From: a virus | Length of the DNA: 20,796 nt | IMG/VR virus record: IMGVR_UViG_3300035698_004239 | Location: 1 to 20,796 of that record | Direction: 5' to 3' (one strand) | Shown here: one piece after another, positions 4,453 through 20,621 of the stretch | Layout: each line of letters opens with the position of its first letter | Numbering within the stretch: position 1 is the first letter of the stretch | Made by a program: the position numbers and the translations under genes | Notes under the pieces: generated by a model | Seen by the model: the letters and a program-made list of their open reading frames with translations, nothing else | The model's database searches: none | Told to the model about the DNA's origin: nothing

Positions 4453-6957
4453 ATGAGTATTGAACATTCTTTTGCGGGTTCAACGATTAGAAAACCCGGC
4501 ATGTATACTCGATCAAGGATTAAGCAAGTCGGAGGGTTCCCTCTGCTTGGTGCGAGTATCGTAGGTATTATTGGTGAAGCGGTCGGAGGTGCTCCCGGTT
4601 CAGACGCCGACGAAGGGGCTCAACTTTACAGCAGCACGGAGATGGCTGATTTGGCCGACAAGTATATCTCCGGGCCGATTGTAGAGGCAGCGAGGGCGTT
4701 AATTAGTCCGGGACGGGACAATCGTATTCCGGGCGGTGCCAATTACATCCGTATTTACAAAACGAACCAAAGCACACAGGCAACGGCGACAGTCGATACC
4801 ATTTCAGCCACATCTGCTGAACTGTTTGACCTTGAGTCGATCAATTATGGTGCTGATGAGAATCTGATTTATTATTATATTTCAGAGGGTACTGCGGTTG
4901 ACACCGATGCGGTTGTTACGAGTGGCGTTGTTACGTTCCCCGTCACATTAGTTGGTGCCGACACGTTGGTTGTAAGCGTCAATGGCACAGATTTTACCTA
5001 TACGGTTGCGGCTTCCGCTGGCGTAAAGGCTACCATTACGACGTTACTGGCAGCATTGAATACGGATGCTGAATGGGCGGCTTCTCGTCCCTGTACGTTT
5101 ACAGAGGGCACGGTTTCTAACACCATCGATATGACGATGGACAATACGAATGCGGCTCTCGAGGAGTATAACGAACTGAATGAGTATTCGATTTATAATC
5201 GTTTGGTTGGTTCTCCCACGACAACGAATCTTGCGTACAAGTGCAACTTTGTTGATGTGGTTGACTTCAATGGTGATGGCTCTGCTTCTGGTACGTTTAC
5301 GGTTGCGGCATCTACTGGCTTGACTGTTGGACAGTTCGTGACGATTGATGATGATGACAGTTCTGAAATTCGTTGTTTGGTCACGACTGTTTCTGGAGCG
5401 GCTCCGACTGTTACGATCACCGTTGATAATGGCAGCACGGATCTTTCTGGTTATACCACGCTACAGAATGCCAAGGTTTATATTTCTGGCTCGGTTGTGA
5501 GCCTGTCTACGTTAGCATTAACGACAGGGGCGGCTGGCCCGATCCGTGGGCATCGTGGATCAAGAATCGTTTCTGTCGGACGCAATGACAGTCTTGAAAC
5601 GCTTGACGAGAACGACGCCAACACGATGATGCGGATTTGGTATGTCGGTACGGGTACGAATTGTGTGATGAGCATCGCTGATGTTTCTACCGTTCGTACA
5701 TTAACCACTACGGTTACGGCTGGTGGTGCTGGCGAAGACCTTGATATCAATCTTGCAAACTATACGATTCAGGAACTTTGTGATTACGTTAACAACTTTG
5801 CCAGTGGCGTTTACATGGCATATCCTGTTTATGGAAATAAGGCTGGTCAGACCGCAGACGTTTTAGATTATTTGAATGGGATCAACATCATTACGTTGCC
5901 GTTAGATGTTAAGGCGATCAACTGGGAGATCTTGACCATTGTTAATAGTCAGTCAGAATTTATTAATTTTGACCTGAAGACGAATGCATATGGTGCTTTG
6001 GAAACAATCACTTCGACCCTGAAGGAATTTCTGACGGGTTCCGTTGCGGGTGCATCGACAAACTCTAATTTCCAGTCTGGGTTTGATGCGTTGCTCCAAG
6101 TCCGTTGTAACACCATCGTCCCGTTGGTTTCGGAAGATGCTACGGCTGACATTGTTCTTGGTCTTACCGACGCGACTTCGACGTACACGATTGATTCCAT
6201 CAATCTTATGTCTGACACGCATTGCCGAACGGCTTCAAATGTTAAGAATCGAAGCGAACGCAATTGCTACGTTTCGTATTTAAGCACTGACTTTGAAACG
6301 TGCAGGCAGAAAGCAGAAGACCTCAACTCTGAATATACTTCTTTCGTTATTCAGGAGTCGCAGGGGCTTGACGTCAATGGTGATACCGTGTGGCAACAGC
6401 CCTATATGTTGGCTTGTAAGTGCGCGGGTATGCAGGCGGGTTCTGAAGTTGGAACGCCAATTACATACAAGCAGCCGAACATCACTGGCATCCGTCATAG
6501 TGATTTTGATCCGTCTACCCAGTATGACAAAGCCATTCAGTCCGGCATTCTGTTTGTTGAGCAGCCAGACTTTGGTGGGTTCCGGGTCGTTGTCGGCAAT
6601 ACGACTTATGGCAAGGATGCCAATGGCGTGTTCAATCGCATTAGCACCTTTGAGGCGGGACAGTATGTCGCCTATAACATCCGTCAGCAGATCGAACAAA
6701 TCTATATTGGCCGGAAACTTGGCAATGCAGAGGCCGTCGGTGAGTCAATCAAAACGACGATCATCGCGATGATGACCCAATTCAGGGATGCTGAAATCAT
6801 TGTTGGTGACGATACCAATGATGGTCTTGGCTACAAGGGACTCTCGATCAGGGTTGAAGGCAACGTGATTTATATCGACATCACGATTACTCCGGTTCCG
6901 GGAATCGACTTTGTGTTTGGAACGATCACAATCGATACGGTAAAGACGATTGTATAA
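4453..6957 (+). CDS. Contractile tail sheath protein, with extra inserted domains
   Basis: The N-terminus (TIRKPGMYTRSRIKQV, then a GIIGEA segment) and the C-terminus (YNIRQQIEQIYIGRKLGNAEAVGES, then D.NDGLGYKGLSIRVEGNVIYIDITITPVPG) are characteristic of phage sheath proteins. The C-terminal domain and terminal arms form the contractile mesh around the tube. At 834 residues it is longer than many sheaths (T4 gp18 is 659 residues). The surplus lies in the middle: the sheath-like strand around residues 132-148 (SINYGADENLIYYYISE) is followed by a hook-IN-like insert (about 167-250) and a copy of the recurrent DDDT/QNA module (270-343). The sheath-like sequence resumes near 370. Such inserts would face outward. 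ATG 4453 has AAAGGAG 9 nt upstream; the tube gene follows after 27 nt. Confidence 0.9.
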   Translation: MSIEHSFAGSTIRKPGMYTRSRIKQVGGFPLLGASIVGIIGEAVGGAPGSDADEGAQLYSSTEMADLADKYISGPIVEAARALISPGRDNRIPGGANYIRIYKTNQSTQATATVDTISATSAELFDLESINYGADENLIYYYISEGTAVDTDAVVTSGVVTFPVTLVGADTLVVSVNGTDFTYTVAASAGVKATITTLLAALNTDAEWAASRPCTFTEGTVSNTIDMTMDNTNAALEEYNELNEYSIYNRLVGSPTTTNLAYKCNFVDVVDFNGDGSASGTFTVAASTGLTVGQFVTIDDDDSSEIRCLVTTVSGAAPTVTITVDNGSTDLSGYTTLQNAKVYISGSVVSLSTLALTTGAAGPIRGHRGSRIVSVGRNDSLETLDENDANTMMRIWYVGTGTNCVMSIADVSTVRTLTTTVTAGGAGEDLDINLANYTIQELCDYVNNFASGVYMAYPVYGNKAGQTADVLDYLNGINIITLPLDVKAINWEILTIVNSQSEFINFDLKTNAYGALETITSTLKEFLTGSVAGASTNSNFQSGFDALLQVRCNTIVPLVSEDATADIVLGLTDATSTYTIDSINLMSDTHCRTASNVKNRSERNCYVSYLSTDFETCRQKAEDLNSEYTSFVIQESQGLDVNGDTVWQQPYMLACKCAGMQAGSEVGTPITYKQPNITGIRHSDFDPSTQYDKAIQSGILFVEQPDFGGFRVVVGNTTYGKDANGVFNRISTFEAGQYVAYNIRQQIEQIYIGRKLGNAEAVGESIKTTIIAMMTQFRDAEIIVGDDTNDGLGYKGLSIRVEGNVIYIDITITPVPGIDFVFGTITIDTVKTIV
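4951..5202 (+). repeat. Hook-IN-like inserted domain in the sheath
   Basis: Encodes sheath residues 167-250: VGADTLVVSVNGTDFTYTV, a helical TITTLLAALNTDAEW, then strands with TFTEGTVSNTIDMTMDN. The strand-helix-strand pattern (display a variable, two strands, then A..AA.LN/IN helix) resembles hook-IN/flagellin-like beta domains and the three copies in the 1404-aa baseplate protein. Similarity is by pattern only. Confidence 0.4.
5260..5481 (+). repeat. Recurrent DDDT/QNA module, sheath copy
   Basis: Encodes sheath residues 270-343. Key blocks in order: NGDGSASGTFTV, TGLTVGQFVTIDDDDS, VSGAAPTVTITV and DLSGYTTLQNAKVY. The same blocks in the same order occur in the 566-aa protein and repeatedly in the 1404-aa baseplate protein. 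Predicted all-beta from alternating hydrophobic patterns. DNA identity between copies is visibly low, so the copies are old or laterally acquired. Confidence 0.75.
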
Positions 6958-6984
6958 TTATAAGATAGGAAAGGAGAAATAAAA

Positions 6985-7404
6985 ATGGCTTCTAATGTCC
7001 CTTCGGGATCAAGAATTGCTTTTAAGATTGACGGTAACAAAGTCGGCTATGCCACTGGCATTTCATATGATGTGACCTATGGTACTGTTCCGGTTCAGGT
7101 GCTTGATCAGCCTGATGTCTTGGAGCATGTCGAGACTGGTTATGATGTTGGTTTTTCAGCGACCAAGTTTCGGGTTGTTTCATCTTCGTTGAAGGCTTTG
7201 GGTATCGAACCTACTTTAGATGGTTTGCTTACCAGAGCAGAACTCGTTGCTGAAGTTTATGATCGGGTCAGTGGTAAAACACTTTCGCGTTTTGAGGGTG
7301 TTAAACTTTCTGGAACTTCAGGCAATGTGAATGCTCGCGATGTATTCAACGAAACCCTGACGTTCGTTGCTCGTAAAATGACGGACGAATCTGAATTTGC
7401 ATAA
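6985..7404 (+). CDS. Tail tube protein
   Basis: 139 residues, all-beta in character, immediately downstream of the sheath, which is where the tube gene lies in almost all contractile tails. Motifs such as GSRIAFKIDGNKVGYATGIS, VPVQVLDQPDVLEHV and the late TLTFVARKM fit the tube family of large myophages, whose subunits stack as hexameric rings around the tape measure. ATG 6985 has AAAGGAG upstream with an 8-9 nt spacer. A stable hairpin follows the stop codon (7417-7441). The assignment rests on position, size and general pattern. Confidence 0.8.
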   Translation: MASNVPSGSRIAFKIDGNKVGYATGISYDVTYGTVPVQVLDQPDVLEHVETGYDVGFSATKFRVVSSSLKALGIEPTLDGLLTRAELVAEVYDRVSGKTLSRFEGVKLSGTSGNVNARDVFNETLTFVARKMTDESEFA

Positions 7405-7416
7405 GACTTACGGGAA

Positions 7417-7441
7417 TGGGGGCAGGCATTGTCTGCCCCCA
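7417..7441 (+). terminator. Strong hairpin after the tube gene, without T-run
   Basis: TGGGGGCAG (7417-7425) pairs perfectly with CTGCCCCCA (7433-7441) around a 7-nt loop. No T tract follows directly, so it is not a standard intrinsic terminator. It could be a leaky terminator or protect the 3' end of the abundant sheath-tube message, letting tube be made in excess of the chaperone and tape-measure genes. Confidence 0.5.
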
Positions 7442-7447
7442 ATCCAA

Positions 7448-7475
7448 ATTATAAAAAAAATAAAAATATAATAAA
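7448..7475 (+). promoter_or_regulatory. AT-rich promoter-like block before chaperone genes
   Basis: The stretch ATTATAAAAAAAATAAAAATATAATAAAGG resembles the block after the terminator at 3037-3067 (TATAAAAAAA, then TAAAAT/TAAAAA and TATAAT). The TATAAT at 7467-7472 is very close to the ATG at 7487, so if it is a promoter the start may use the upstream TATAAAA element instead. It may equally be an unstructured ribosome-access leader. Confidence 0.25.
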
Positions 7476-7486
7476 GGAGAATTAAA

Positions 7487-7870
7487 ATGGATTTTACTGG
7501 ACTCCCTTCGATGGAATTTTCTTTTACCCTTTCTGTAAAAGGATCAGAAACAAATAAATTATATGAGGGCAACTTTGTATATTGCCGTTTGAATTACCGT
7601 GCCAAAGCAGAGGCAGCAAAACTGACCTCTCAATTGAGTGGCGATCTAGAGAACATTGATTCGTCCATTCGCTTCATGAATAGTATCCTTGGTGTTTTAC
7701 GTTTCGGCCTCACAGATTCCCCAAAGTGGTGGGGAGATAGTGCTTTCGGTTTAGATCTTTATGATGACAATGTTGTTATAGAAATCTATAAGAAGGTTGA
7801 TGAGTTTGAGAAGAATTGGTCAAGGGAAGTAAACAAAAGTCCGTCAAAACCAAAACAGAAAGATGAGTAG
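7487..7870 (+). CDS. Putative tail assembly chaperone (first of pair)
   Basis: The gene lies between tube and tape measure, the invariant place of the tail assembly chaperones (lambda gpG/gpGT position). ATG 7487 follows AAAGGAGAATTAAA. The 127-aa product begins with beta-like strands (FSFTLSVKG, LYEGNFVYCRLNYRAK) and continues with helices, then a Lys/Ser-rich tail. Its stop TAG 7868-7870 overlaps the next ATG at 7863 by 8 nt. Tail chaperones bind the tape measure and recruit tube subunits. No direct family motif is seen; the call rests on position, size and the paired overlap. Confidence 0.6.
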   Translation: MDFTGLPSMEFSFTLSVKGSETNKLYEGNFVYCRLNYRAKAEAAKLTSQLSGDLENIDSSIRFMNSILGVLRFGLTDSPKWWGDSAFGLDLYDDNVVIEIYKKVDEFEKNWSREVNKSPSKPKQKDE

Positions 7871-8240
7871 CACAAGCAATTTAGAAAAGATTGCGTTTAA
7901 GAACTTATATGAACTAGAAACGGAAGATGATGTATTCCGTTATCTCCGTATCTGGTGGTCTAGTTATTATAAAAGACCAAGCAAAGATCCTTTGTTAAAG
8001 GAGTATACCTTTGAAGAGTTGTTGTTGGAATTCTTTGAGCAGAATTTAAAGAATAATAAAGAGAGGTTTCAAGAAATAAAGGATGAATGGTTTGAGCAGT
8101 GCTTGAGCGATGAAGAATGGCTGAAAAAAGAGGAGGAAAAGATTGGGGCTAAAATTGTAAAGGCAGAGGGCAGTGGCGAGACCAAGAAGTCCACGATGAT
8201 TATGGTGGCCTTACTGAAAAGGTTAAATAGATATGGCTAA
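7863..8240 (+). CDS. Putative tail assembly chaperone (second of pair)
   Basis: The 125-aa product is highly helical and acidic in its first two thirds (FEELLLEFFEQNLKNNKERF, WFEQCLSDEEWLKKEEEK) and basic at the end. It overlaps the previous gene by 8 nt (ATGAGTAG) and the tape measure gene by 8 nt (ATGGCTAA), with no strong ribosome site of its own. Its expression therefore probably depends on coupling, or on a +1/-2 frameshift from the upstream gene; frame 0 is open from 7833. No clear slippery heptamer is seen. The assignment is by position and architecture. Confidence 0.55.
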   Translation: MSSTSNLEKIAFKNLYELETEDDVFRYLRIWWSSYYKRPSKDPLLKEYTFEELLLEFFEQNLKNNKERFQEIKDEWFEQCLSDEEWLKKEEEKIGAKIVKAEGSGETKKSTMIMVALLKRLNRYG

Positions 8241-10452
8241 TAAAAAACATGTGCTTAAAATTTCTGGTGACTTTAAGGAATTAGAAAAAAGTTTCAGCAA
8301 GGTAAAGCGAGAACTAAAGGGGCTTGGCAAAGAAGGTATCGATCTTAAACTTTCCCCAGATGCAAAGAAACTTATTTCTAGAGAGCAAGCCTCCCTTGTC
8401 AAAGACCTGTCCAAAGAAATTAAAGTAGCAGAGCAAGAGGTCAATAAACTCGCCAAGGCATATGAAAAAACGGGCCTTGGCCTTGATAAATTTAATCGTG
8501 CAGTAAGGCAGCATTCTCAACTATCCAGACAAGCCAAACAAATGAGCAGCGGCTTGTCCGGTGCTGCTCCCGGGGCTACTCCCGGTGGTACAGGCAGCGG
8601 CATGGCTGGTGTGTTGGGGGCATTGGGACTTGGTGGTTTGGCTAGAATGCTCACTCCGGTTGGTGCAATTGCGGGTATGGCTATGGGCGCACATTATATC
8701 TATGGTCGTTCTCAAAAATATGTGAATCCGGGATTAATTTATAACAGTATGGGATACAGCCGGAAACAAGTCCGTAGAGGCGTAATCGAACCCGGAGTGC
8801 AACAAGGATACAACCGCGACGAAGCAATGGACATGGGAATTAATTGGTCAAGGGCGACTGGCGGTATCGGCGGTATTGGTTTGGGGATGCAGGCAAGCAG
8901 GGCTTTTGGGCTGGACTTCGGACAAGTCGCCGGGATTGGAGAAACGGCTCGTCGTGGTGGTCAGAGTGGGAATCAACGTAAGTCATTTATAGATATGTTA
9001 GCGGCTGGTGTGGCAAGCGGGGTTGGGATTGCTCGTTTACCTGAATATTTGCAAGCACAGTCTGCTATGTTAAGTGGCTTTTTACAAAGTGGGCCTACCG
9101 ATCTTGGGTTCTTATCTTCGCTACTTTCTACAGCAACAAATAAGGGTGGAACTTTTGCCCGAAATAATCCCAACGCAACGGCCAGTGTAATGCAGAAACT
9201 TAATGCTGGGTATATGTCTCAAGGCCGTGGTGGGAATATGTGGGGACTTATGGCCCCAGAAGTAATAAGACAGTTCCCGAATGCCCGTGGAGCATATGAC
9301 ATTCAAACAATTACTGCTGCTGGGATGGGCGGGATCGGCGGGTCAGATTTGGCAGATATGAATTTGCCCCCTTCGGTTTTGGCTCGCTATAAAAGGCTTG
9401 GACTGACTGGGGCCAATGTCGGTGATAAAAACATGCAAGTTCTTTACAATAGCGTTATCGGCAACAACAGGGGAGACCCAACACAAATTGGGGGGGCGAT
9501 TGCATCGATGATGCCCGGTTCTTCATTGGGTGAGCAGAATCAGGCAATGGGTTTTTTGCAAACTTGGAATCAAAATAAAGGTACGCCCGTAGGAGACGAG
9601 GCTCGTCAAAATTTTTTGAAGTCACTAGAAGATAAAAGTAAAACTGTTATGAAGAGCATGGATGGATATTTGAAAAGTATCGATGCCAATATTGAAAAAC
9701 TTAAAGACCAGTGGACGATAGAGGGTATCGTCTTCAATGTATTCGGCATTAAGGCCGTGGAGAATGCCCAAGACCTAATGCATGGTGGAAGTTCATCCTC
9801 TTCAACAACTGGTTTCGGTGAGGTGAAGGGGAAGTGGGGCGACAAGGGCGGCAGAAGGGGATATGCAACGGATAGGCACAATAATCCAACGGCCATGTCT
9901 GTAAGAGTGGCCAAGCAAGGTGGTCTAATTGAGGGCAAAGATTATGTTGTTGGAGATTCTTTCGATGGTGGGAAAGAAAACTGGGCAAGATTATTAGGAG
10001 ACCCATATGAAAAGACAAGAAAGGTAATTGACGAGATAGGCTTTTACACACAGGGGGGGAAACCACGCTGGGACTATATAGCAATGTCCAAGGCAGAATG
10101 GGACTCAAGGGGTAAAGAAGGACAAGACGCGACCATAGAGGGGATGAATCGTCATGAGGGTGGGTCTGGGTCATTAAGTAGGGCAAATGTAAATGGCTCT
10201 CCTTCTACCAATTTTGGTGGGATCGTAAAGCAATATAATGGTGATGCTTCTGCGGGGAATTCCATAGTGCCGGGAGGAGTAAGTTCTATGACCGCCAACC
10301 CCGGCACGGTAATGCTAGACTTTGCGGGAGAAGCCGTTACATGGTTTCGGCGTCTAGTAGACAAACAAGAGGAAACGAAACAAGAAATCGCAAGGACAAA
10401 GCCGGGAACTGGTGCGCCAGATAATTTGCATCAACTCAATAAGGAAATTTAA
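8233..10452 (+). CDS. Tail tape measure protein with C-terminal RHNNP domain
   Basis: 739 residues in the tape-measure position. The N-terminus (about 10-105) is a charged coiled coil. A Gly/Ala-rich linker then leads to a hydrophobic stretch at 122-158 (MAGVLGALGLGGLARMLTPV..AIAGMAMGAHYIYG), typical of tape measures that reach the inner membrane during DNA entry. The middle is Gly-rich. Residues about 540-625 form a distinct domain beginning YATDRHNNPTAM and continuing VVGDSF, ARLLGDPYEK, GGKPRWDYIAMSKAEW, reminiscent of phage RNNNP-type domains associated with peptidoglycan hydrolysis. By the 1.5 A per residue rule the tail would be about 110 nm. Its start overlaps the preceding stop. Confidence 0.85.
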   Translation: MANKKHVLKISGDFKELEKSFSKVKRELKGLGKEGIDLKLSPDAKKLISREQASLVKDLSKEIKVAEQEVNKLAKAYEKTGLGLDKFNRAVRQHSQLSRQAKQMSSGLSGAAPGATPGGTGSGMAGVLGALGLGGLARMLTPVGAIAGMAMGAHYIYGRSQKYVNPGLIYNSMGYSRKQVRRGVIEPGVQQGYNRDEAMDMGINWSRATGGIGGIGLGMQASRAFGLDFGQVAGIGETARRGGQSGNQRKSFIDMLAAGVASGVGIARLPEYLQAQSAMLSGFLQSGPTDLGFLSSLLSTATNKGGTFARNNPNATASVMQKLNAGYMSQGRGGNMWGLMAPEVIRQFPNARGAYDIQTITAAGMGGIGGSDLADMNLPPSVLARYKRLGLTGANVGDKNMQVLYNSVIGNNRGDPTQIGGAIASMMPGSSLGEQNQAMGFLQTWNQNKGTPVGDEARQNFLKSLEDKSKTVMKSMDGYLKSIDANIEKLKDQWTIEGIVFNVFGIKAVENAQDLMHGGSSSSSTTGFGEVKGKWGDKGGRRGYATDRHNNPTAMSVRVAKQGGLIEGKDYVVGDSFDGGKENWARLLGDPYEKTRKVIDEIGFYTQGGKPRWDYIAMSKAEWDSRGKEGQDATIEGMNRHEGGSGSLSRANVNGSPSTNFGGIVKQYNGDASAGNSIVPGGVSSMTANPGTVMLDFAGEAVTWFRRLVDKQEETKQEIARTKPGTGAPDNLHQLNKEI

Positions 10453-11921
10453 TGAAGCGAACGATACGTTCAAGAAAAACTAGATGCTTTATGGACGTTT
10501 TCCACTTCACAGACCAAAGCGTGTCTGGTGGGGGTTTAGACACACAAAAGCATCAACTCTATGACCACATTGTTTCTTTCTCCTATTCCAAAAGCATCGC
10601 TAGTCCCTCTGGATCTTTCCAGTGTAAAATTTTGCCAGTTAAAGACTATTCTAAATTTATTTCTCCCGGTGATTGGGTACAGATTTATTTAACGACTGAC
10701 ACAGATAAAAAACACAAACGAGTCATCGGGAATGTTGATCGTGTAGCACTAGAAACGGTAGTCAGCGCAGACGGAATGTCTGAAACATTTTTTGTTATTT
10801 CTGGAAGGGACTTCGGGAAAATTTTTCAAGACACAATGATTTGGTTCAATCCCTATAAGATAGGTGGCATGCAGTTCACGATTTTAGATAAGGTGAACAA
10901 GTTGGGTGGGCCTTCAAACGTCTTAATCAAAAACCTCATCGATCTGTTTTTAAACGACACGACCACAATCCCCAATTGCTCTACGAGTTTGAATTATTGG
11001 TACGTCGGATACAAGTTGGCTAAAGAACTGGGATCTCACGGCCATCCGCAATTCGCAGATTTTTTAAATTTAGATGATTTAAAGGTTGCCCAACCGGGGT
11101 ATAAATTAATCCCCACCATGAACACCCAAGGCAATTTGTGGGAGTTACTGACAACCATTAGTAACGAAGTCATTAATTCTATGTATGCAGAACTTTATGA
11201 AAACGAGGAGGGGATCACGCTGCCAAAACTTTTCTTTGGGGTTCGTCCATATACATTCAGGACATATAGTTCTAAAAAGGTGCCCGTTCGGTATTTTTTA
11301 GACCTACCCGAAGTCGCTATAAGTTCCGACAGCATTATTCGATCTTCAACTGGAATCAATGACCATGACCGATTCAACATGTTCTTTTTGAGACTAAAGG
11401 AAGAGCCAATTTTTAAAGCGACAGAGGCTCGTCTTTTTTCAAATCCCGCACTTGTGATGAACAAAGAAAGCATCAAGAGAAATGGGTTAAGGTTGTTCCA
11501 ACGGACAGTCGATTATGGCTCTATAGGGCAGAATGGGACTATTGATTTGGACATATACGAATCCTATCTCGATTTGGTTACTCAATGGTATAAGGGGAAT
11601 CATTTGTTAGAAAATGGTACGTTCTCAATTGTAGGAAGCCCCGACGTAAGAATCGGGAAGCGTCTTGTGATCACGGACAGCGATGTCTATCCCAATCGAC
11701 AATTTTTAATCGAGTCTTATACCGATGAATGGAACTACCAAGACATTTGGAGACAAACAATAGGGGTTACAAGGGGAATCGTTGTAGAAGACGGGGCAGA
11801 AAAATATGCGTATGAGGGATCAGAAAGTCTGTTCAATATTTCTGCAATTTCTGACGTCAAGAACACCCCGACAATGGACTTTGCCAACAATGCCGATGCT
11901 CTGGGGGGAGAACTTGCATAA
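10452..11921 (+). CDS. Baseplate hub protein (gp27/gpD-like role)
   Basis: Directly after the tape measure and before the spike, the usual place for the trimeric hub. The N-terminus has the beta-barrel pattern of hub proteins: IVSFSYSKSIASPSGSFQCKILP, SPGDWVQIYL, KRVIGNVDRV and a following FVISGRDFGKIFQD. A later segment (LENGTFSIVGSPDVRIGKRLVI ... RQFLIESYTDEW) fits the second barrel seen in gpD/gp27 proteins. The start at 10452 overlaps the tape-measure stop by one base and has AAGGA upstream. ATG 10491, which would drop a 13-residue basic N-terminus, is an alternative. The stop overlaps the ATG of the spike gene. Confidence 0.7.
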   Translation: MKRTIRSRKTRCFMDVFHFTDQSVSGGGLDTQKHQLYDHIVSFSYSKSIASPSGSFQCKILPVKDYSKFISPGDWVQIYLTTDTDKKHKRVIGNVDRVALETVVSADGMSETFFVISGRDFGKIFQDTMIWFNPYKIGGMQFTILDKVNKLGGPSNVLIKNLIDLFLNDTTTIPNCSTSLNYWYVGYKLAKELGSHGHPQFADFLNLDDLKVAQPGYKLIPTMNTQGNLWELLTTISNEVINSMYAELYENEEGITLPKLFFGVRPYTFRTYSSKKVPVRYFLDLPEVAISSDSIIRSSTGINDHDRFNMFFLRLKEEPIFKATEARLFSNPALVMNKESIKRNGLRLFQRTVDYGSIGQNGTIDLDIYESYLDLVTQWYKGNHLLENGTFSIVGSPDVRIGKRLVITDSDVYPNRQFLIESYTDEWNYQDIWRQTIGVTRGIVVEDGAEKYAYEGSESLFNISAISDVKNTPTMDFANNADALGGELA

Positions 11922-12811: not shown

Positions 12812-12814
12812 GTA

Positions 12815-14515
12815 ATGGCTATTGTTTTTGATGCGACAACTCGTAAGGCGGTTTCAAGAAGGATTGTAAAGATCCCCATTGAGAACTCTGCGTTTGATAC
12901 ATCTATCGCCAGTATCGACGAAGCCGCGACTGTTTTTACAAATGTAGATTCTGGGAATGAACTTTGGTTTAATTGGTACAAGGACGATATCGGTGGGCAG
13001 TATGAAGCCGAACGGACTTCGATGAACGGTTGGGTTTTTTCTACCATGATCGAACAGAACCTAACTGATTCTGTTAATCAAACCGATTACAATATCTTTT
13101 TTCCCAAGGGAGTAAATTATAATCCCTACATGTATCCGCTTGTGAACTACATGGTAAAGGGAGAAAACGGTACGCCGTTTCAGAGCGATGGCGCAGCGGG
13201 TGGAACATTTACGACTTGGGAAGTTAATAATTTAGCAACTGGACAAGACGTTGTCGTGACAGACGATGACACCGGAGACACTTCCGACACTTACATCCAG
13301 AACATTGTTGGGGCGAGCGCACCGTTTACGATCACCGTTTATAATCGGGTGACTGGTACAGCACAGAACCTTTCTTCGTACACGGTAGAAAAGAATGCCA
13401 ATATTAAGAGCGTAAGAAACCAGTATGCAGAAACTATCGTGATGGGTTATATTTTAGAAATTTATAATATTTTGATTACTGGTATCGCAGGCGGTGGGGC
13501 TTCTGTCGGTGGCAATTATAACCAAGCAGCGAAAACTGTTTCTGCTTCAATCAACACTTGGGGCATTGGGCAGAAAATCATTGGTGACAATGGTGCTGCG
13601 GCAGGCGCAGTTTTAGAAATCATCAGTGCCCCCTCTGGAGTTATCCCTACCTACACATATTCAGTAAGGGAGATCGCCGCAACGGGAAACGTAACGGCTT
13701 CTTTCACAGGAACCTTCGGTGGATTTAGCAATGTACAGCGCGAAAACCTAGCAGGATCGGCTTATGATAATGCCCTGAATGCCCTTGCTGTTCAAATGAA
13801 GGATTGGGTTTATGTTGACGTCACAAATTCTTGGAACGTGATTCTGACCGCAGAAGAAACGGCATTGGGAGCCAATGAAGAAGACCGTGCCGCGCAACAG
13901 GCTCAAATTGTAGTGGCTCAAGCAGACGTAACAGCGGCAAAGGCTGTTATTACTACTTGGTCTGGCTACCCCGACACAGGTGTCACGGGCAAGTTTTCAG
14001 ACGGTGAAATAGGAACAATCAATACAGAAATGACTGCCCGGAATGTCTTTATAACAACGAGAGTCGCTCAAATTGTTGTCGCGTTAGGCGGTGTCACCGA
14101 TGCGGGTGGAAGTTTTACCTTTGTGAACACGGCTTTAGACATTTACTATCGTCGATTCCAATTTATGGATTTTAGAATCGGTCGTGTTGCTGGCAGTCTG
14201 GCAAAAGCCACTCGACAATCAGGTACTTCCAGCATCATCACTGGATTAAAAAATACCAACACCGCACTTGAGGCTGAATATACAAGTAAGATGTCGGCAA
14301 GTATTTTTACGAACGACGGGGATGACAGCACAATAGTCGAAGTTGAAAACGGTGCCCTGTTTGCGCCTAGAGATATAGTGTATGTAATTTCAGAAACACA
14401 ACCAGAGATCGCAACAATTGTTGTTTCGGTTAAGGGGAACAGGGTGAACCTGAACAGCATTGTAAGTTCGGATTACACAATCGTAGATTTAGGTAGATTG
14501 TATAAAACGATATAA
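12815..14515 (+). CDS. Unrecognised structural protein, 566 aa, carrying the recurrent module
   Basis: The gene lies between the spike and the gp53/LysM/gp25 fusion, so it is almost certainly a baseplate or tail-associated protein, but I recognise no family. ATG 12815 follows AGGTGGGTAAGTA. Residues 1-120 are unique (LWFNWYKDDIGGQYEAERTS). Residues 121-200 are a copy of the module shared with sheath and wedge. Residues about 220-305 hold another beta segment (IGQKIIGDNGAAAGAVLEI). Residues 345-395 contain Ala/Gln-rich helices (EDRAAQQAQIVVAQADVTAAK), and the C-terminus is a small beta domain (LFAPRDIVYVISETQPE ... VSVKGNRVNLNSIV). Alternating helical and beta blocks suggest an extended, possibly trimeric protein. 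Confidence 0.6.
   Translation: MAIVFDATTRKAVSRRIVKIPIENSAFDTSIASIDEAATVFTNVDSGNELWFNWYKDDIGGQYEAERTSMNGWVFSTMIEQNLTDSVNQTDYNIFFPKGVNYNPYMYPLVNYMVKGENGTPFQSDGAAGGTFTTWEVNNLATGQDVVVTDDDTGDTSDTYIQNIVGASAPFTITVYNRVTGTAQNLSSYTVEKNANIKSVRNQYAETIVMGYILEIYNILITGIAGGGASVGGNYNQAAKTVSASINTWGIGQKIIGDNGAAAGAVLEIISAPSGVIPTYTYSVREIAATGNVTASFTGTFGGFSNVQRENLAGSAYDNALNALAVQMKDWVYVDVTNSWNVILTAEETALGANEEDRAAQQAQIVVAQADVTAAKAVITTWSGYPDTGVTGKFSDGEIGTINTEMTARNVFITTRVAQIVVALGGVTDAGGSFTFVNTALDIYYRRFQFMDFRIGRVAGSLAKATRQSGTSSIITGLKNTNTALEAEYTSKMSASIFTNDGDDSTIVEVENGALFAPRDIVYVISETQPEIATIVVSVKGNRVNLNSIVSSDYTIVDLGRLYKTI
13175..13414 (+). repeat. Recurrent DDDT/QNA module, 566-aa protein copy
   Basis: Encodes residues 121-200. 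Blocks: PFQSDGAAGGTFTTW, GQDVVVTDDDTGD, YIQNIVGASAPFTITVYN, QNLSSYTVEKNANIKSV. Order and spacing match the sheath copy and the wedge copies, with a few extra residues between blocks. It falls between a YMYPLVNYMVKGENG segment and QYAETIVMGYILEIYN, which read like parts of one surrounding domain. Confidence 0.75.
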
Positions 14516-14532
14516 TAGGGTGGGGTAAATAA

Positions 14533-16395
14533 ATGGCTCTACAGGAATTTAGACAACTCAAGACTTCAGTCGAAGACTGGAAAAATATCGATGATACGTT
14601 TGCTTCTATTTGGGGTGGGGGCAATTCTTCCCTCAACGTATTGGTCGCGCATGCGTTGCAAGAAATCAAGCCAAGGAACTGGAATAAGAATCCCGGCTAT
14701 GTATTCAAGATTACAAATGCAAGTGGCGCAGTAAGCAGTGCCAACACCCAATATCGGTTACAGTTAAATCCGCAAGCATTAAAGCAGAGCGAGCCGTTTT
14801 CGATTAAGATTATTCCAACGCAGTCAGGCGTTGTAACTGAAAACGAAGGTTTCGTTTTTAAAGACCTTGTCCTTTCAGGAACGACGGGGATCTATCCTTC
14901 GCGAGGCACCCAAGGGGTTACCGATGCGGGCTTCGCTAGATTAGGTGGGGGCAAGTCCGGCTATCAAGAGTTGATGGAGTTGCGGAATTTCATTCGTCAA
15001 TATGCACAGATCAAAACTTTGGCAGACGGGAAAAATGCCAGACTGGCCTTCAACAACTTTAAGGACAATGAGTTTTGGTACGTTGAGCCTGTTAAGTTTG
15101 ATACGAGCAGAAGCAAAGATTCTCCATTTACATATAACTATGAAATTATTTTTAAGATCATCGGGAAGGTCGCTCCTGATACTGATGGTCTGCCGTGGTA
15201 TGAGCAAATCTTTGCGACAATCGATGACATAGAAGATACAATTGATGCGGCAATAAATGTTTTTGATAGCGCGATAGACATGCTGACTCAAGTTGAACAG
15301 GCCGCAGATAGCATTTTGTTAAAGCCATTACGGCAAGTGAACAAGGTTATCCAGTCGCTACAGTCTGGGAAGAACACCGTTTCTTCATTGCCACGAAAGT
15401 TTTATGGAGCGTTGCAATATGAAGTCAGACGGATACGGGATAACTTTTGTGATTTCATTGGGCAAGGCGATACAGGCTATGACGAAATTTATGATCGTGA
15501 GTCCACGTTGCAGAGTGGGTCTACCTCTACAGTTCTAACTGTCGAGCAAAGAGAAGTACTATCGGCATTCAATAATACGGAGAAAGCGTTGAACGACATG
15601 CTTTCCTCTAATCAATATTTCGGTGATGTTGTTCAGGTCGTTTTAAACAACACCATTCTTGATCAAGATTCTATTATCAGCGAGCAGACTCTCTTGGCAG
15701 GACAGGCCGCCAGTAAAGAAAATGTACTAAAGGCATTCGACAATAAGATTTCATTGCCCACACCGAACTCTGCATATAAAATAACCGTAGAGACGGGGGA
15801 CATTTTAGAACGTATCGCAATGAGGCGGTTGGGGGATCCAACAAGGTGGATTGAGATTGCAAGTCTGAATAAACTTAAACCGCCCTATGTGGACGATACT
15901 CTGGTACAAGATGGGGTGGTTAATCCCGGAGATCAAATATTAATCCCATCGAATTCGGCTTCAAGCGCAGGGGATACCCTCCAGTTTAAGGGGAGAGAAA
16001 CTTCCGTTACAAGAACCCTGACCGACCAAGAAAATTTTATGTCTGTTGATTTGTTGCTCAACACAAATGCCGATTTGATTTTAAACAATCGTGGCGATGT
16101 CGAGTTGGTCTACGGATATGATAATTTAAAACAAGCAGTTTTCTTGCAACTTGGATATGAAAAAGGATCGTTATTTTATCATCCTAATCGTGGAGTAAAC
16201 ATTAAGGTTGGCGGAAAAAGCCTATTGATGGTTGATGAAATGATCCAGTCCATCAGAGAAACTTTGGAAGCCGATCCTCGTATTTATCAGGTTTCCAACA
16301 TAAGTTTAAGTAGGCAAGATAGTCTAGTAAGGTTGGACATGAATGTAATTGCCAATAAGGCGAAAGAAGAAGTTCCGTTTGTATTGACATTTTAA
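14533..16395 (+). CDS. Baseplate protein: gp53-like N-terminus, LysM domain, gp25-like C-terminus
   Basis: 620 residues with three recognisable parts. The N-terminal third contains FVFKDLVLSGTTGIYPSRG (about 107-125), typical of gp53-like wedge proteins of large myophages. Residues 414-474 are a LysM-type domain: YKITVETGDILERIAMRRLGD, a W..I..LN.L segment and NPGDQILIPS. Residues 504-620 match the GPW/gp25 sheath-initiator fold (LLLNTNADLILNNRGDVELVYGYDNLKQAV ... NRGVNIKV ... ETLEADPRIYQV), with D581-P582-R583 where gp25 has its conserved EPR motif. Gp25 nucleates the sheath and gp53 joins baseplate wedges; here both functions appear fused. The hydrophobic helix region in the middle may be a linker. 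ATG 14533 follows GGGTGGGG. Confidence 0.75.
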   Translation: MALQEFRQLKTSVEDWKNIDDTFASIWGGGNSSLNVLVAHALQEIKPRNWNKNPGYVFKITNASGAVSSANTQYRLQLNPQALKQSEPFSIKIIPTQSGVVTENEGFVFKDLVLSGTTGIYPSRGTQGVTDAGFARLGGGKSGYQELMELRNFIRQYAQIKTLADGKNARLAFNNFKDNEFWYVEPVKFDTSRSKDSPFTYNYEIIFKIIGKVAPDTDGLPWYEQIFATIDDIEDTIDAAINVFDSAIDMLTQVEQAADSILLKPLRQVNKVIQSLQSGKNTVSSLPRKFYGALQYEVRRIRDNFCDFIGQGDTGYDEIYDRESTLQSGSTSTVLTVEQREVLSAFNNTEKALNDMLSSNQYFGDVVQVVLNNTILDQDSIISEQTLLAGQAASKENVLKAFDNKISLPTPNSAYKITVETGDILERIAMRRLGDPTRWIEIASLNKLKPPYVDDTLVQDGVVNPGDQILIPSNSASSAGDTLQFKGRETSVTRTLTDQENFMSVDLLLNTNADLILNNRGDVELVYGYDNLKQAVFLQLGYEKGSLFYHPNRGVNIKVGGKSLLMVDEMIQSIRETLEADPRIYQVSNISLSRQDSLVRLDMNVIANKAKEEVPFVLTF

Positions 16396-16406
16396 GGAGC
16401 AAGTAA

Positions 16407-19400
16407 ATGGCATTTGAATTTAAATCTTTTCAAAAAATTGTTGCCGATCAAGTCGCATTTTTGACAGCAAACAGTGCCTTGAATGATATCAACGCTGGTT
16501 CTACCATTTTAACAATTATTGAAATGGTGTCTCAAGAAATTTATCAGCAGTACATTCAGTTGGTTAATATCATCCAGAGTTATAACCTTGAAACCACTAC
16601 AGGCGAAGACCTAAACAATCGTGCTCTGGAGTATGGCCTTGAAAGATTAGATGCCCGAAAGGCTAGTGGATACATCACTATTACTGATGAAAGTTTTGAC
16701 AAAGTTTCTACGAATGTGTTTGCTGGCACTGGCGGTGCCGTTGCTGGTCAAGCCACATTGGATATTGATGATTCTACCGGGTTTACTGTCCCATCATTCC
16801 CCGATCCGTGGCCAAAAGTTATTGTTGGTCGAGGTACGGCAAGCGAACAAGCAATTGAATATACCGCGATTGTAGATAAGACAACCTATTATCAATTAAC
16901 TTTGAATGGGACGGTCACAGATAGCCATAAGGTTGGCGAATCAGTTATTTTAAGTCAGGGTGGGTTGCGAACAATCAATGCCGGGACACTTGTTTACGTT
17001 CCTGAAACGAACGTCTCTTCAAGAATAGACTATACGCTAAACGAGACAGCGACTTTGGCTGATGGAGAAGACACTGTCTTGAGCGTATTGGTTACTGCCA
17101 GCACAGCAGGCATAGATGGGAATATCCCTGTTGAGGCAATCGATACTTTTGAAACTGCTCCGTTTACAAATGCAATTGTCACAAATCCAGAATCGTTTAC
17201 AAGTGGGTCTGATGAAGAATCCGATCAGGAATTAAGAGATAGGATCCGTGATACGGTTCAAAGTTTGTCGAAGGGGACTGCTCTTTCAATTACAACAGCG
17301 TTAAGTGGTATCACAAATGATGATCAAACGAGGCGCGTTGTATCTTCAAACCTGATTGAGCCTGTTTCAATTTCCGAACCGACACGGATTTATATCGACG
17401 ATGGTGTCGGCTTTGAGCCAAGTTTTAGCGGGAAGGCTACAGAGTATGTTATTAGAACTGCCGCTGGAACAGAAAAATTTGTGCAGTTGGATAACTATCC
17501 AATCGTTAAGGCCGAGTTGATAACAAATAATTCCCAACCATTTGCCATTAATTCTGGCGACAAATTATTGATTTCTGTAAACGATGTCGAGGAAGAAATT
17601 ATTTTTGGCTCCACGGATTTCAGTGCCTCCGGTGTTGCGACGGCTAGGGAAATTGCTATCGCCATTAATGACCGCATGTCATTAATCGAGGCTCGTACTG
17701 CGAGTGGGAGTACCGAAGTCACTATTAGCGCGTTAGCCAATACAAATGAAAAAATCAAAGTACTTACTCCTGCAACAGGGGTCAATGTAAACGATGCGTT
17801 GAACTTTGCTGAAAACCAATATGCATACACATTAAAACTTTATAAGAATGATGTGCTTTTGAGCAAAGACGGCCTGACGGCATTTGTCGATACAGACAAT
17901 GAGGCTCCCTATGCATTAGTAGATACGCAAGACCTCACCCTGATCATTGATGATAAGGGGACGAACATCTTGACGGTTGTTTTCCATACGGCAGATTTCG
18001 TGAACATTGCTATCGCTACAGCCGCAGAGGTTGCTGCGGCAATCGATGCAGAATTACCCGGTGGATATGCGACAGCGATTTTAGATGATAGCAAGGTGCG
18101 TATCTATTCAAGGACGGCAAACAGTGAGGACTCCTCCATAGAGGTTACTGGTGGGACAGCGAATGCCGTCTTGGGTTTTTCTACTGTACAGGTCGAGGGC
18201 GTCGATCTTGACTATATCCTTAATCGCTTTAACGGACAGATTGAATTGTCCACGGCCCTTGTGGAGAACGACATCGTAACCGCTGGGACAAATAATACCG
18301 AAGCATTTCTAGAATGCGTGAGTCCACAGAACTATCCGATCACAGCAGGAATAGATACATTGGCATTCTTTGTTGATGGCGAAGTAGTCGCACAAACAAT
18401 TACTTTTGCCTTGGGTTCGTACACGGCAGAACAAATCGCAGATTTGATTAATGCCGATACTGCTTTAATTGGTATCCGTGCCTACACCGTTGAGCGGGGG
18501 GCGGATACTTATTTAAGAATTGCTACAAACACCTTGGACGGCACTGGCACGATTGAGGTTGATAGCACCGCAACGACGGCAACTACTTTAGACTTTCCTT
18601 ATGATACGTTGGCCACAAGTGAAGAGCCGAACTTGGCATATGTCGAGCCTGATAATGAAGAAAGTTATATTTTAGGCCCAGACCAAAACTTGGTTACTAT
18701 TTTAGATGGTGACGCTTCTGATCGTGTATTCAACTTACTGTTCAGCGTCGAAGGTACTGTTACAAATAGTATTGCTGCAAATTTGTTTGATTCCTCCAAT
18801 GTTGCGGCTGCTTATTCAAGTACAAATGATTTTTTCAATGGCTACTATATTCGTTTTAAAAACCTGACAACGACTGCGGCCCTTCAGGGATACGCTCGCT
18901 ATGTTTCAGACTATATAGGTGCAACGGGGAATTTTACGTTAAGCGATGATTTTCTTTATACACAGACGTTCTTGTCAAGCGGAACTGCTATCGGAACCTT
19001 TACAACCGATTCTCTTACTGGCGTTGCTATGGGAGCAACGGTAGATATTGAAGATGATGACACTGTAGCCGTAACAGGGGTGGTCACAAACATTACTGGT
19101 GCTGCTTCCCCCTACACGGTTGAAATTGACGCTGGCGCAACCAACCTTACGGCCTACACTACAGCACAAAATGCTAAAGCAGTTTTTCATGTGGCCCCTG
19201 TCAACGGAGACTCTTTTGATTTGATCCCTGTGACAGCAGACAATGTTGTGTCTTTTTTAAACAATACGTTGATTACTCCGTTCTCGATTTATGCCGATGT
19301 GCGCTTAATTAAAGAAGGCGTGAAGCCGCAGATTTCTACTACGACTTCTGGCTCTGCTGGTGGGATCCAGATTACTGGTGGCACTGCGAACAATGTATCA

Positions 19401-20621
19401 ATCGCGTTTTCTGAAAACGGTGGTTCGACTGGAGACTTTGAGGTCGATACAATCGATGGCCTGTTCTTCGGTGAGGGTGACAACGTAGCGGCGAATTATT
19501 ATTATGGCGGCTTCCGTGTGTCGTTAGACAATGCCCTGAACAGTTATACTTATCCATTTGTAACAGATGGTCAGGCGGGTGGAACATTCACATGTGCCAA
19601 CGCAAGATATTTACAGATTAATGACGGCACTGTTATTAAAGATGACGATACCCAGACCTATCTTAATGGATTAATAAACGAGATTACGGCGGTTGGTTCG
19701 TTAGTTTTCGATTCGGACGGTCAATCGAATGGGACATTCACAACAAATGACGATCCTTCGGGATTAACTGTCGGTGACTATGTCGTTATAAACGACAACA
19801 ATACCAATGCATATACGAATGGATATATTTATTCTTATACTGCTGGCGGTGCCCCTTGGACTGTTACTATCTATGATGGCGGTACAGATGAGCCATTTGA
19901 TTTGAGCGCATATACTCTTGCTCAAGTCGCAGAGTGTTATTATCCTCCGTTCACCGTTGAAATTTATGACAGAACAACGGGCGTTGCATATGACATATCG
20001 GCATTTACTGCATTGCAAAATGCCGAAATCAGTTCAGTTTATGACAAGGGTTACGTTCAGAACATTGCCGCTGATTTAGGCACGGGTGCCGAACCCTACA
20101 CCGCAACAATCTATGATGAAGACTCCTTGGCATTGTGTGATACATTAGAGATGTATACGCTTGATTATGGTGCCGTTGTAGAAGAACGTCATAGTTTTAA
20201 TTTTGATGACAATCCAGTAGTCGGCGTCGATGGCTATAAGTACTACATTGGCTTATTAAGAGAGGTGCAGTGGAAACTGGACGGATTAGATTCTGATCCG
20301 ACAAACTATCCCGGAATTAAAGCAGCGGGTGTCACCATTGAAGTTTCTGCGCCAGTGGTACGGCCTATTAAGTTATCGATTAATATTACCACCGAAGGTG
20401 ACATTACCATCGGGAGCATTACTTCCGATATCAAAAGTGCTGTTTCTCAATATATTAATAATCTGAAAGTTGGCGAAGACGTTTTATTAACTGCGATAGA
20501 GTGTGCGATTAGAGGCGTGACTGGTGTTTATGACGTAAGCATTATCAGCCCGACAATTAATGTCGTTATTTCTGACAATGAATTGGCAAGAATTTTGTCT
20601 GCCGATATTACACTTGTTTAG
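16407..20621 (+). CDS. Giant baseplate J-type wedge protein with multiple inserted domains
   Basis: 1404 residues. The N-terminal portion (1-340) is a baseplate J/gp6-like wedge: INAGSTILTIIEMVSQEIYQQY near the start, a beta core, then FTSGSDEESDQELRDRIRD followed by SLSKGTALSITTAL, the J-family signature. The C-terminus (about 1290-1404: VVRPIKLSINITT ... VSQYINNLKVGEDV ... IRGVTGVYDVSIISP) is the matching J tail. Between these, about 950 residues are inserted: three hook-IN-like domains (375-455, 508-592, 649-734), a NDFFNGYYIRF/YVSDYIGATGNF domain (806-850 and resuming at 928), and at least three copies of the DDDT/QNA module (854-927, 1049-1099 plus 1179-1210, 1100-1178). J proteins are commonly a few hundred residues. 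ATG 16407 has AAGGAG upstream. Confidence 0.85.
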   Translation: MAFEFKSFQKIVADQVAFLTANSALNDINAGSTILTIIEMVSQEIYQQYIQLVNIIQSYNLETTTGEDLNNRALEYGLERLDARKASGYITITDESFDKVSTNVFAGTGGAVAGQATLDIDDSTGFTVPSFPDPWPKVIVGRGTASEQAIEYTAIVDKTTYYQLTLNGTVTDSHKVGESVILSQGGLRTINAGTLVYVPETNVSSRIDYTLNETATLADGEDTVLSVLVTASTAGIDGNIPVEAIDTFETAPFTNAIVTNPESFTSGSDEESDQELRDRIRDTVQSLSKGTALSITTALSGITNDDQTRRVVSSNLIEPVSISEPTRIYIDDGVGFEPSFSGKATEYVIRTAAGTEKFVQLDNYPIVKAELITNNSQPFAINSGDKLLISVNDVEEEIIFGSTDFSASGVATAREIAIAINDRMSLIEARTASGSTEVTISALANTNEKIKVLTPATGVNVNDALNFAENQYAYTLKLYKNDVLLSKDGLTAFVDTDNEAPYALVDTQDLTLIIDDKGTNILTVVFHTADFVNIAIATAAEVAAAIDAELPGGYATAILDDSKVRIYSRTANSEDSSIEVTGGTANAVLGFSTVQVEGVDLDYILNRFNGQIELSTALVENDIVTAGTNNTEAFLECVSPQNYPITAGIDTLAFFVDGEVVAQTITFALGSYTAEQIADLINADTALIGIRAYTVERGADTYLRIATNTLDGTGTIEVDSTATTATTLDFPYDTLATSEEPNLAYVEPDNEESYILGPDQNLVTILDGDASDRVFNLLFSVEGTVTNSIAANLFDSSNVAAAYSSTNDFFNGYYIRFKNLTTTAALQGYARYVSDYIGATGNFTLSDDFLYTQTFLSSGTAIGTFTTDSLTGVAMGATVDIEDDDTVAVTGVVTNITGAASPYTVEIDAGATNLTAYTTAQNAKAVFHVAPVNGDSFDLIPVTADNVVSFLNNTLITPFSIYADVRLIKEGVKPQISTTTSGSAGGIQITGGTANNVSIAFSENGGSTGDFEVDTIDGLFFGEGDNVAANYYYGGFRVSLDNALNSYTYPFVTDGQAGGTFTCANARYLQINDGTVIKDDDTQTYLNGLINEITAVGSLVFDSDGQSNGTFTTNDDPSGLTVGDYVVINDNNTNAYTNGYIYSYTAGGAPWTVTIYDGGTDEPFDLSAYTLAQVAECYYPPFTVEIYDRTTGVAYDISAFTALQNAEISSVYDKGYVQNIAADLGTGAEPYTATIYDEDSLALCDTLEMYTLDYGAVVEERHSFNFDDNPVVGVDGYKYYIGLLREVQWKLDGLDSDPTNYPGIKAAGVTIEVSAPVVRPIKLSINITTEGDITIGSITSDIKSAVSQYINNLKVGEDVLLTAIECAIRGVTGVYDVSIISPTINVVISDNELARILSADITLV
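17529..17771 (+). repeat. Hook-IN-like domain 1 in the J-type protein
   Basis: Residues 375-455: INSGDKLLISVNDVEEEIIF, the helix TAREIAIAINDRMSLIEA, then strands STEVTISALANTNEKIKVL. The pattern (strand, strand, A.EIA.AIN helix, two strands) is shared by two more copies in this protein. Confidence 0.55.
17928..18182 (+). repeat. Hook-IN-like domain 2 in the J-type protein
   Basis: Residues 508-592: QDLTLIIDDKGTNILTVVF, the helix TAAEVAAAIDAELPGGYA, then KVRIYSRTANSEDSSIEVTG and NAVLGFS. This is the clearest of the three copies. Confidence 0.6.
18351..18608 (+). repeat. Hook-IN-like domain 3 in the J-type protein
   Basis: Residues 649-734: IDTLAFFVDGEVVAQTITF, the helix TAEQIADLINADTALIG, then DTYLRIATNTLDGTGTIEVD. 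It matches copies 1 and 2 in layout. Confidence 0.55.
18966..19187 (+). repeat. Recurrent DDDT/QNA module, J-type protein copy a
   Basis: Residues 854-927. Blocks: GTAIGTFTTDSLTG, GATVDIEDDDTVA, ITGAASPYTVEIDA and NLTAYTTAQNAKAVF. It interrupts a beta domain whose first part ends GATGNFTLSDDFLYT and whose last part is APVNGDSFDLIP. Confidence 0.75.
19551..20036 (+). repeat. Recurrent module copy b/d, split by an internal copy
   Basis: The first half (19551-19703, residues 1049-1099) has YPFVTDGQAGGTFT, TVIKDDDTQTYLN and LINEITAVGS. The second half (19941-20036, residues 1179-1210) has PPFTVEIYDRTTG, YDISAFTALQNAEISS. Joined, they align along the whole module, and the break falls exactly at the loop before the P.FTV strand. 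Confidence 0.65.
19704..19940 (+). repeat. Recurrent module copy c, nested in copy b/d
   Basis: Residues 1100-1178, a complete copy: VFDSDGQSNGTFTTND, GLTVGDYVVINDNNTNAYTNG, YTAGGAPWTVTIYDGG, FDLSAYTLAQVAECYY. It lies between the two halves of copy b/d. Confidence 0.7.

Follow-up and report, generated by a model that had tools for sequence, protein, structure and literature searches.

The window analysed here is a 20.8-kb fragment (20,796 nucleotides; IMG/VR record IMGVR_UViG_3300035698_004239) of an uncultured bacterial virus, and carries a contractile-tail operon. A module of ~80 residues recurs in the tail sheath protein, in a protein of 566 amino acids (p566) and in the baseplate J-type wedge protein (J), and in J the module is nested in itself. 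The host genes are the following.

4453..6957, + strand: tail sheath protein (PHROG 279, 1.8e-37; PF17482)
12815..14515, + strand: p566, between the spike-like and the gp25/LysM-like baseplate genes
16407..20621, + strand: baseplate J or wedge protein, 1404 amino acids (PF04865, 2.5e-19; PHROG 6, 5.6e-39)

p566 has no Pfam or PHROG match. The comparisons below use six relatives from IMG/VR (L004/L051, L005, L006, L007, L008/L050 and L052/L054), which come from two datasets, 3300035698 and 3300031227, mostly the former. The overall identity of J to the J of the window is 60-74% for four relatives.

Module copies in the window

A reading made earlier from the letters of the window (the sequence-only reading) had described five copies across the sheath, p566 and J. 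All five are real and lie in the genes and frames it gave, essentially at its coordinates, with refined limits, but it missed a sixth, J0, which is split around J2. The copies and their parts are listed below. The leave-one-out values are independent E-values (i-E) of a hidden Markov model (HMM) profile of four copies searched for the omitted fifth.

5257..5493, + strand: module SH, sheath copy (sheath residues 269-347), leave-one-out i-E 9.6e-18
13169..13420, + strand: module in p566 (residues 119-202), leave-one-out i-E 6.4e-22
18963..19196, + strand: module J1 at J site B (J residues 853-930), leave-one-out i-E 9.2e-18
19401..19544, + strand: N-part of module J0, outermost of the nest (J 999-1046), from a profile without J0 and J2 copies and from hhalign
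19545..19700, + strand: N-part of module J2, middle of the nest (J 1047-1098), 8.8e-11 leave-one-out and 4.4e-12 with the profile without J0 and J2
19701..19940, + strand: module J3, innermost of the nest (J 1099-1178), leave-one-out i-E 4.7e-20
19941..20045, + strand: C-part of module J2 (J 1179-1213), leave-one-out i-E 1.8e-9
20046..20174, + strand: C-part of module J0 (J 1214-1256), profile without J0 and J2, 9.1e-3 in the window and 9.5e-8 in L054

Pairwise Smith-Waterman scores of the five copies are 92-164, against shuffled means of ~30 and a shuffled maximum of 73, and every pair lies above 1,000 shuffles with z of 11.5-22.0. The similarity claimed in the sequence-only reading is thus borne out, and the profile retrieves its own members with leave-one-out i-E of 6.4e-22 to 1.8e-9. 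In 5-fold shuffled proteins, which served as a control, the best match to the module profile is 0.18. The stretches are compositionally biased, which would suit convergence, that is, a threonine- and glycine-rich beta sequence alike through composition and not through homology. The composition-preserving shuffles and the shuffled-protein controls fall short of the real scores, and the order of the sequence blocks is conserved. The shuffles refute a composition artefact at the level of sequence, and we give convergence next to no credence.

Residues kept in at least 90% of 25 module copies are only G, G and F. The tube protein of the window (139 amino acids) contains no module copy by profile. 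The C-terminal domain of p566 is probably a distant relative of the module, as its profile comparison by hhalign gives a probability of 90 and E 1.6e-6, with shuffled profiles at most 0.5.

14285..14512, + strand: C-terminal domain of p566, from hhalign to the module profile

By the same method, kinship with the module family is undetected for the host domain around J1 (probability 1.2), the J N-terminal domain (1.1), and the alternative domain of p566 in L005, L007 and L008 (8.9).

A three-level nest in J

According to the profile matches, the architecture of this part of J is J0[J2[J3]J2]J0, with the module inside itself three deep. J0 was tested with a profile from which every J0 and J2 copy was left out. 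This profile finds the N-part of J0 at 0.0074 in the window and at 9.4e-5 to 0.015 in five orthologues, and the C-part at 0.0091 and at 9.5e-8 to 0.001, respectively. Spliced J0 reaches i-E 1.9e-12 to 5.8e-6 in five of the six orthologues, and in L004 the two halves match separately (3.0e-5 and 1.5e-5). When the J0 profile is compared to the module profile by hhalign, the probability is 97.9 and E is 4.8e-13, with column-shuffled profiles at most 0.5.

The halves of J2 cover complementary profile positions, 2-51 and 50-76. The interruption points differ: J0 is broken by J2 near profile position 30-40, and J2 by J3 at ~50. The nest is kept in all six J proteins, namely that of the window and those of five relatives, so that six orthologues show a domain that members of its family interrupt at two levels at least, with complementary profile ranges.

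Filled and empty sites among relatives

Within the clade, the protein types that carry the module number at least five: the sheath, p566, J, a gpI-like protein and a fibre-like protein. At four fixed sites (J site A, J site B, gpI and fibre) it is cleanly present or absent between orthologues, which indicates insertion in loops of other proteins or other folded domains. One of these sites is empty in the window.

18144..18155, + strand: J site A, empty in the window (SSIEV^TGGTAN), from orthologue alignments

J site A is filled in L005, L007 and L054, and empty in the window, L004 and L006. J site B is filled by J1 in the window and L005, and empty in L004, L006, L007 and L054. In the gpI-like protein, which is encoded past the window end, only L007 has the barrel module. 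The fibre-like protein (424-512 amino acids) has one module copy in all five contigs reaching it, and a second copy in L005 and L007. The p566 module is present in the window, L004 and L006; in L005, L007 and L008, other sequence takes the place of p566 residues ~100-245, and the N and C termini are retained. All three available sheaths have the module, the two relatives being filled at the same position with diverged copies. In one 64-kb contig, every match to the module profile is within the sheath, p566, J or fibre genes. As orthologues without the polymorphic copies keep the surrounding protein intact, these copies cannot be essential.

Misassembly of related phages from one metagenome could in principle mimic presence and absence, and most relatives do come from one metagenome (IMG/VR 3300035698). 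However, each junction is in frame in a long open reading frame with contiguous host sequence on both sides, there are two source datasets, and both the empty and the filled state are represented by several contigs. Misassembly is therefore a very improbable cause of the pattern.

Landing sites and a second module

The insertions at J site A and gpI occur after a strand ending in IQI or IEV, at the TGGTAN of several empty versions. The host domains of these two sites are homologous (hhalign probability 97.5, E 6.4e-12, shuffled maximum 2.5). J0 of the window begins shortly after another IQITGGTAN. The J0 host domain gives hhalign probabilities of 23-29 to two other host profiles and under 1 to two, which hints weakly that it belongs to the domain type that recurs at J site A and gpI.

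The repeated host domain is seen at ~366-470, 495-580 and 634-732 of the window J and in the gpI-like proteins of relatives; in hhalign, five of its six pairs have probabilities of 69-97.5 and the sixth has 26. Two of its copies hold insertion sites. The motif recurs as VQVTGGTAN in the J-like protein of Myxococcus phage Mx1 (L009 14461), a phage with no module match.

A second portable module is present in the relatives and absent from the window. It is helical, has ~120 amino acids and carries NAHAAD..QHTTA...YDAHDADAE. It is located at J 950-1081 in L006, at J 1028-1159 in L007 and at 222-355 of the gpI-like protein in L004, and in the J of L006 and L007 it sits inside J0. The J and gpI-like versions are 51-56% identical. 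At the gpI site, L004 has the helical module where L007 has the barrel.

Similarity of copies across genes

In a tree of 37 module copies, most copies, including those of the nest, the sheath and p566, group by site. The second fibre copy of L005 (F2) groups with J1 of the window and L005 (support 0.989). It has 62% amino acid identity to J1 of L005, and the two are 70.5% identical in DNA over 200 nucleotides (E 3e-18), in a local alignment that begins at the first module residues and has an 18-nucleotide exact run. The site A copy of L005 is also similar to its J1 in DNA (71% over 129 nucleotides). The closest sheath-to-J pair comprises the sheath and site A copies, with up to 49% amino acid identity.

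Vertical inheritance with losses would require an ancestor filled at all sites and no movement between genes. The clustering of most nest, sheath and p566 copies by site agrees with this, and whole loop insertions are easily deleted. In contrast, L005 F2 falls inside the J1 and site A group, apart from other fibre copies, and the gpI site is occupied by the barrel in L007 and by the helical module in L004, and is empty in three others. Moreover, the site B distribution disagrees with the tree of the J N-terminal region, in which the window and L006 (support 1.00) and L005 and L007 (0.996) are sisters; this conflict requires either recombination or a minimum of two gain or loss events. On balance, vertical inheritance is unlikely. 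The sequence-only reading had proposed one promiscuous family in three virion proteins. The family and its varied positions are upheld, the number of protein types is too low, and the proposal is strengthened because relatives gain or lose the module and because copies in different genes resemble each other.

Predicted fold

The SH copy was modelled by AlphaFold2 on an alignment of 25 module copies, with a predicted local distance difference test score (pLDDT) of 95.9 and a predicted template modelling score (pTM) of 0.84. The predicted fold is a small beta-barrel, like the insertion barrels of phage tailspikes and a phage tail-tube domain. The best VIA-align match of the SH model in the PDB is Klebsiella phage K1 lyase (7w1c 143-231, Z 11.1), with a root-mean-square deviation (rmsd) of 1.8 over 76 of 78 residues and 24% identity. 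Further matches are the tail tube of phage Mystique (9n71 107-179, Z 9.1), the tail-tip protein of phage Chi (Z 8.4), EF-Tu (Z 7.3-8.5), LKA1gp49 (4ru4 284-370, Z 7.4, 24% identity) and the N-terminal barrels of V-ATPases (Z 6.5-6.9). The P22 coat I-domain is absent among the matches listed for this model. With Foldseek alone, no PDB match of the SH model reaches E 1e-3, the leading ones being V-ATPase (1.1e-3) and K1 lyase (3.0e-3). A PDB sequence search gave no relevant match of the module to the solved barrels; the 24% identity comes from structural alignment.

Two further copies were viewed in a model of J 783-1262. The J1 stretch, folded with just one other J1 copy in the alignment, matches V-ATPase barrels with Z up to 9.9. 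The model stretch 313-397, which spans J3, matches Mystique 9n71 104-176 (Z 8.1, rmsd 1.9). Together, the matches of SH, J1 and J3 indicate one barrel fold for three copies, in line with the common fold anticipated in the sequence-only reading, the agreement being partly by construction.

Named families were considered as well. The SH copy matches the HAS-barrel PF09378 at 21.4 bits (E 2.7e-4), under the gathering cut-off of 25.2, and is the only one of 25 copies to do so. Membership was rejected, and no ATPase family matches the sheath, J or p566. An Ig-like (immunoglobulin-like) identity is improbable, with no Pfam Ig-type match and a model that, among the matches listed, resembles barrels. 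DUF7767 and DUF5334 were rejected, their few weak matches being incoherent across copies. The sequence-only reading did not recognise the module as Ig-like or as a named family; nothing supports an Ig-like nature, but the predicted fold is a known one, that of tailspike and tail-tube barrels.

Comparison with known systems

Tailspike barrels: In K1 lyase, the 'rider' barrel is inserted in a beta-helix loop, stabilises the trimer and borders a second sugar site. Its authors likened it to the P22 coat I-domain, which is reported to be important when the capsid folds and assembles (PMC8822698). The barrel inserted in LKA1gp49 has six strands, and its authors compared it with the P22 domain and with residues 1-75 of a V-type ATPase (PMC5701251); KP34gp57 has a similar insertion (PMC10653864). 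Like these riders (7w1c, 4ru4, KP34gp57), the module is predicted to be a barrel of ~80-90 residues in a loop of a host tail protein. In contrast, its hosts are sheath, J-type wedge, gpI-like and fibre-like proteins and not beta-helix depolymerases, and it is multicopy per particle, self-nested and without a detected sequence-level link to the riders.

Tail-tube domains: The Mystique tail-tube domain (~104-179; Acinetobacter phage, 9n71) has the same predicted fold and is also in a tail shaft protein. It differs in being a single copy in a tube protein, a protein that has none in the window. In the YSD1 tail tube, an inserted domain stabilises ring contacts (PMC8718954).

Other barrels: The N-terminal barrels of V/F-type ATPases, HAS-barrel PF09378 and EF-Tu domain 2 share the same general barrel, but the module has no ATPase partner domain as in the V/F-type ATPases.

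Ig-like domains: Sheaths of large phages bear additional, often Ig-like, domains away from the tube (Evseev et al., PMC9230969), and Ig-like domains are described as a promiscuous decoration of tail proteins (Fraser et al. 2006, as cited in PMC10684548). The module is similarly promiscuous and optional, and presumably exterior on the tail, including the sheath (PMC9230969), but it is predicted to be a barrel, not a sandwich.

Recursive insertion: In SI3 of cyanobacterial RNA polymerase, a small beta domain is reported to be inserted recursively at six levels (PMC13114784). The HABAS or sandwich-barrel hybrid motif of SI3 resembles the module in this respect, and differs in fold and system; the module is in a virion protein and its insertion is polymorphic at other sites.

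In the largely open-access literature that was searched, no report was found of such a barrel in a sheath or J protein or nested in itself.

Genomic setting and distribution

In addition to the host genes, the operon encodes the tube, chaperone-size genes, a tape measure, hub and spike-like proteins, and a gp25/LysM/tube-initiator protein. A 33-base inverted repeat (85%) at 7413-7445, directly 3' of the tube gene, is probably a terminator. In the relative L051, a direct repeat of 131 bp (3751-3878 and 4678-4808, 88.6% identical) lies upstream of the sheath gene.

Of the named phages, Mx1 is the nearest found, with 32% identity across part of J. Among named phages, J matches Mx1 and otherwise gives short J-core matches only, the module alone gives nothing credible, and a profile search of Mx1 gives no module match. 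The bacterial genomes searched contain no relatives, and module-level scans of IMG/VR, which reach close relatives only, gave no contig outside the clade. The sequence-only reading had looked for hits in other phage virion proteins at varied positions; these are found in the gpI-like and fibre-like proteins of relatives but not, credibly, in named phages.

Mechanism and function

Taken together, the observations are likely to be explained by one beta-barrel insertion family, borne by recombination and able to nest in itself, that serves as non-catalytic exterior decoration. Copies would move between genes, and between co-infecting phages, via DNA recombination. The ends of the module would meet near one edge, and it would thereby fit surface loops of a host domain, including its own. 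In the SH model, strand 3 (37-47) is a long one, and strand 4 comprises 50-55. By alignment, J3 would interrupt the hairpin between strands 3 and 4 of J2, and J2 would enter J0 ahead of its strand 3. The two entry points of the nest would then lie at either end of a single strand, the barrels are expected to stack outwards, and the three of them may form a rod that is held on the wedge protein by a double tether. It is plausible that the copies are exposed at the surface, given that the additional domains of sheaths are located away from the tube (PMC9230969).

Several points weigh against this explanation. No enzyme or repeat able to move the module was found, and at six or seven contigs gains are indistinguishable from losses. 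Within the clade, the majority of orthologous sites, among them the entire nest and the sheath copy, are old and display no recent movement. The AlphaFold model of J 783-1262 is poor, with a mean pLDDT of 44.5 and 58-76 over most of J1, and function and rod geometry are things that we only infer. In addition, the alignment for the SH model held all copies, which accounts for the part of the fold agreement that is by construction.

As to function, the most likely, if speculative, role of the copies is to stiffen or cement the tail, to adhere weakly to sugars, or both. A structural role, in which the copies act as cement or spacers and make the contacts of sheath and baseplate stiffer, is quite possible, if short of likely: the K1 lyase rider stabilises its trimer and the similar P22 I-domain reportedly matters for capsid assembly (PMC8822698), the inserted domain of YSD1 stabilises ring contacts (PMC8718954), and nesting yields two-strand tethers suited to a stiff rod. 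The unchanged flanks in orthologues without a given copy oppose this role, since the polymorphic copies are then non-essential. More tentatively, the copies could be carbohydrate-binding adhesins, distributed over the tail, by which the phage attaches reversibly, a role that has been put forward for Ig-like tail domains, given that the predicted fold is shared with barrels bordering sugar sites in K1 lyase, LKA1gp49 and KP34gp57 (PMC8822698, PMC5701251, PMC10653864). However, the tailspike barrels work with a beta-helix that is absent here, and the conservation of G, G and F alone leaves no obvious sugar site.

The recombination-borne family could be part of a broader system, a doubtful extension in which the barrel and the helical module are both mobile cassettes that hop by recombination to preferred landing sites and the barrel stacks into stiff rods. 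That the preferred site is the strand ending in IQI/TGGTAN of the repeated host domain is held with similar reserve. If this extension were true, tail surface architecture would be remodelled continually.

Significance

Distant comparisons are the usual basis for inferring that domains are shuffled in phage tails. In this clade, filled and empty sites are seen between close orthologues, a cross-gene copy is still similar in DNA, and a module is hosted in itself. The fold is already known; what is new is that it has spread across sheath and baseplate proteins of a single clade, together with the visible gain and loss, the shared landing sites and the three-level self-nesting. The sheath and wedge copies can now be placed in the predicted insertion-barrel fold of tailspikes. 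Two questions are made testable, namely by which route additional domains enter sheath and baseplate proteins, and whether such decoration is adhesive or structural. The virus can be seen redecorating its tail with a reusable part, as its relatives gain or lack the module at identical spots.

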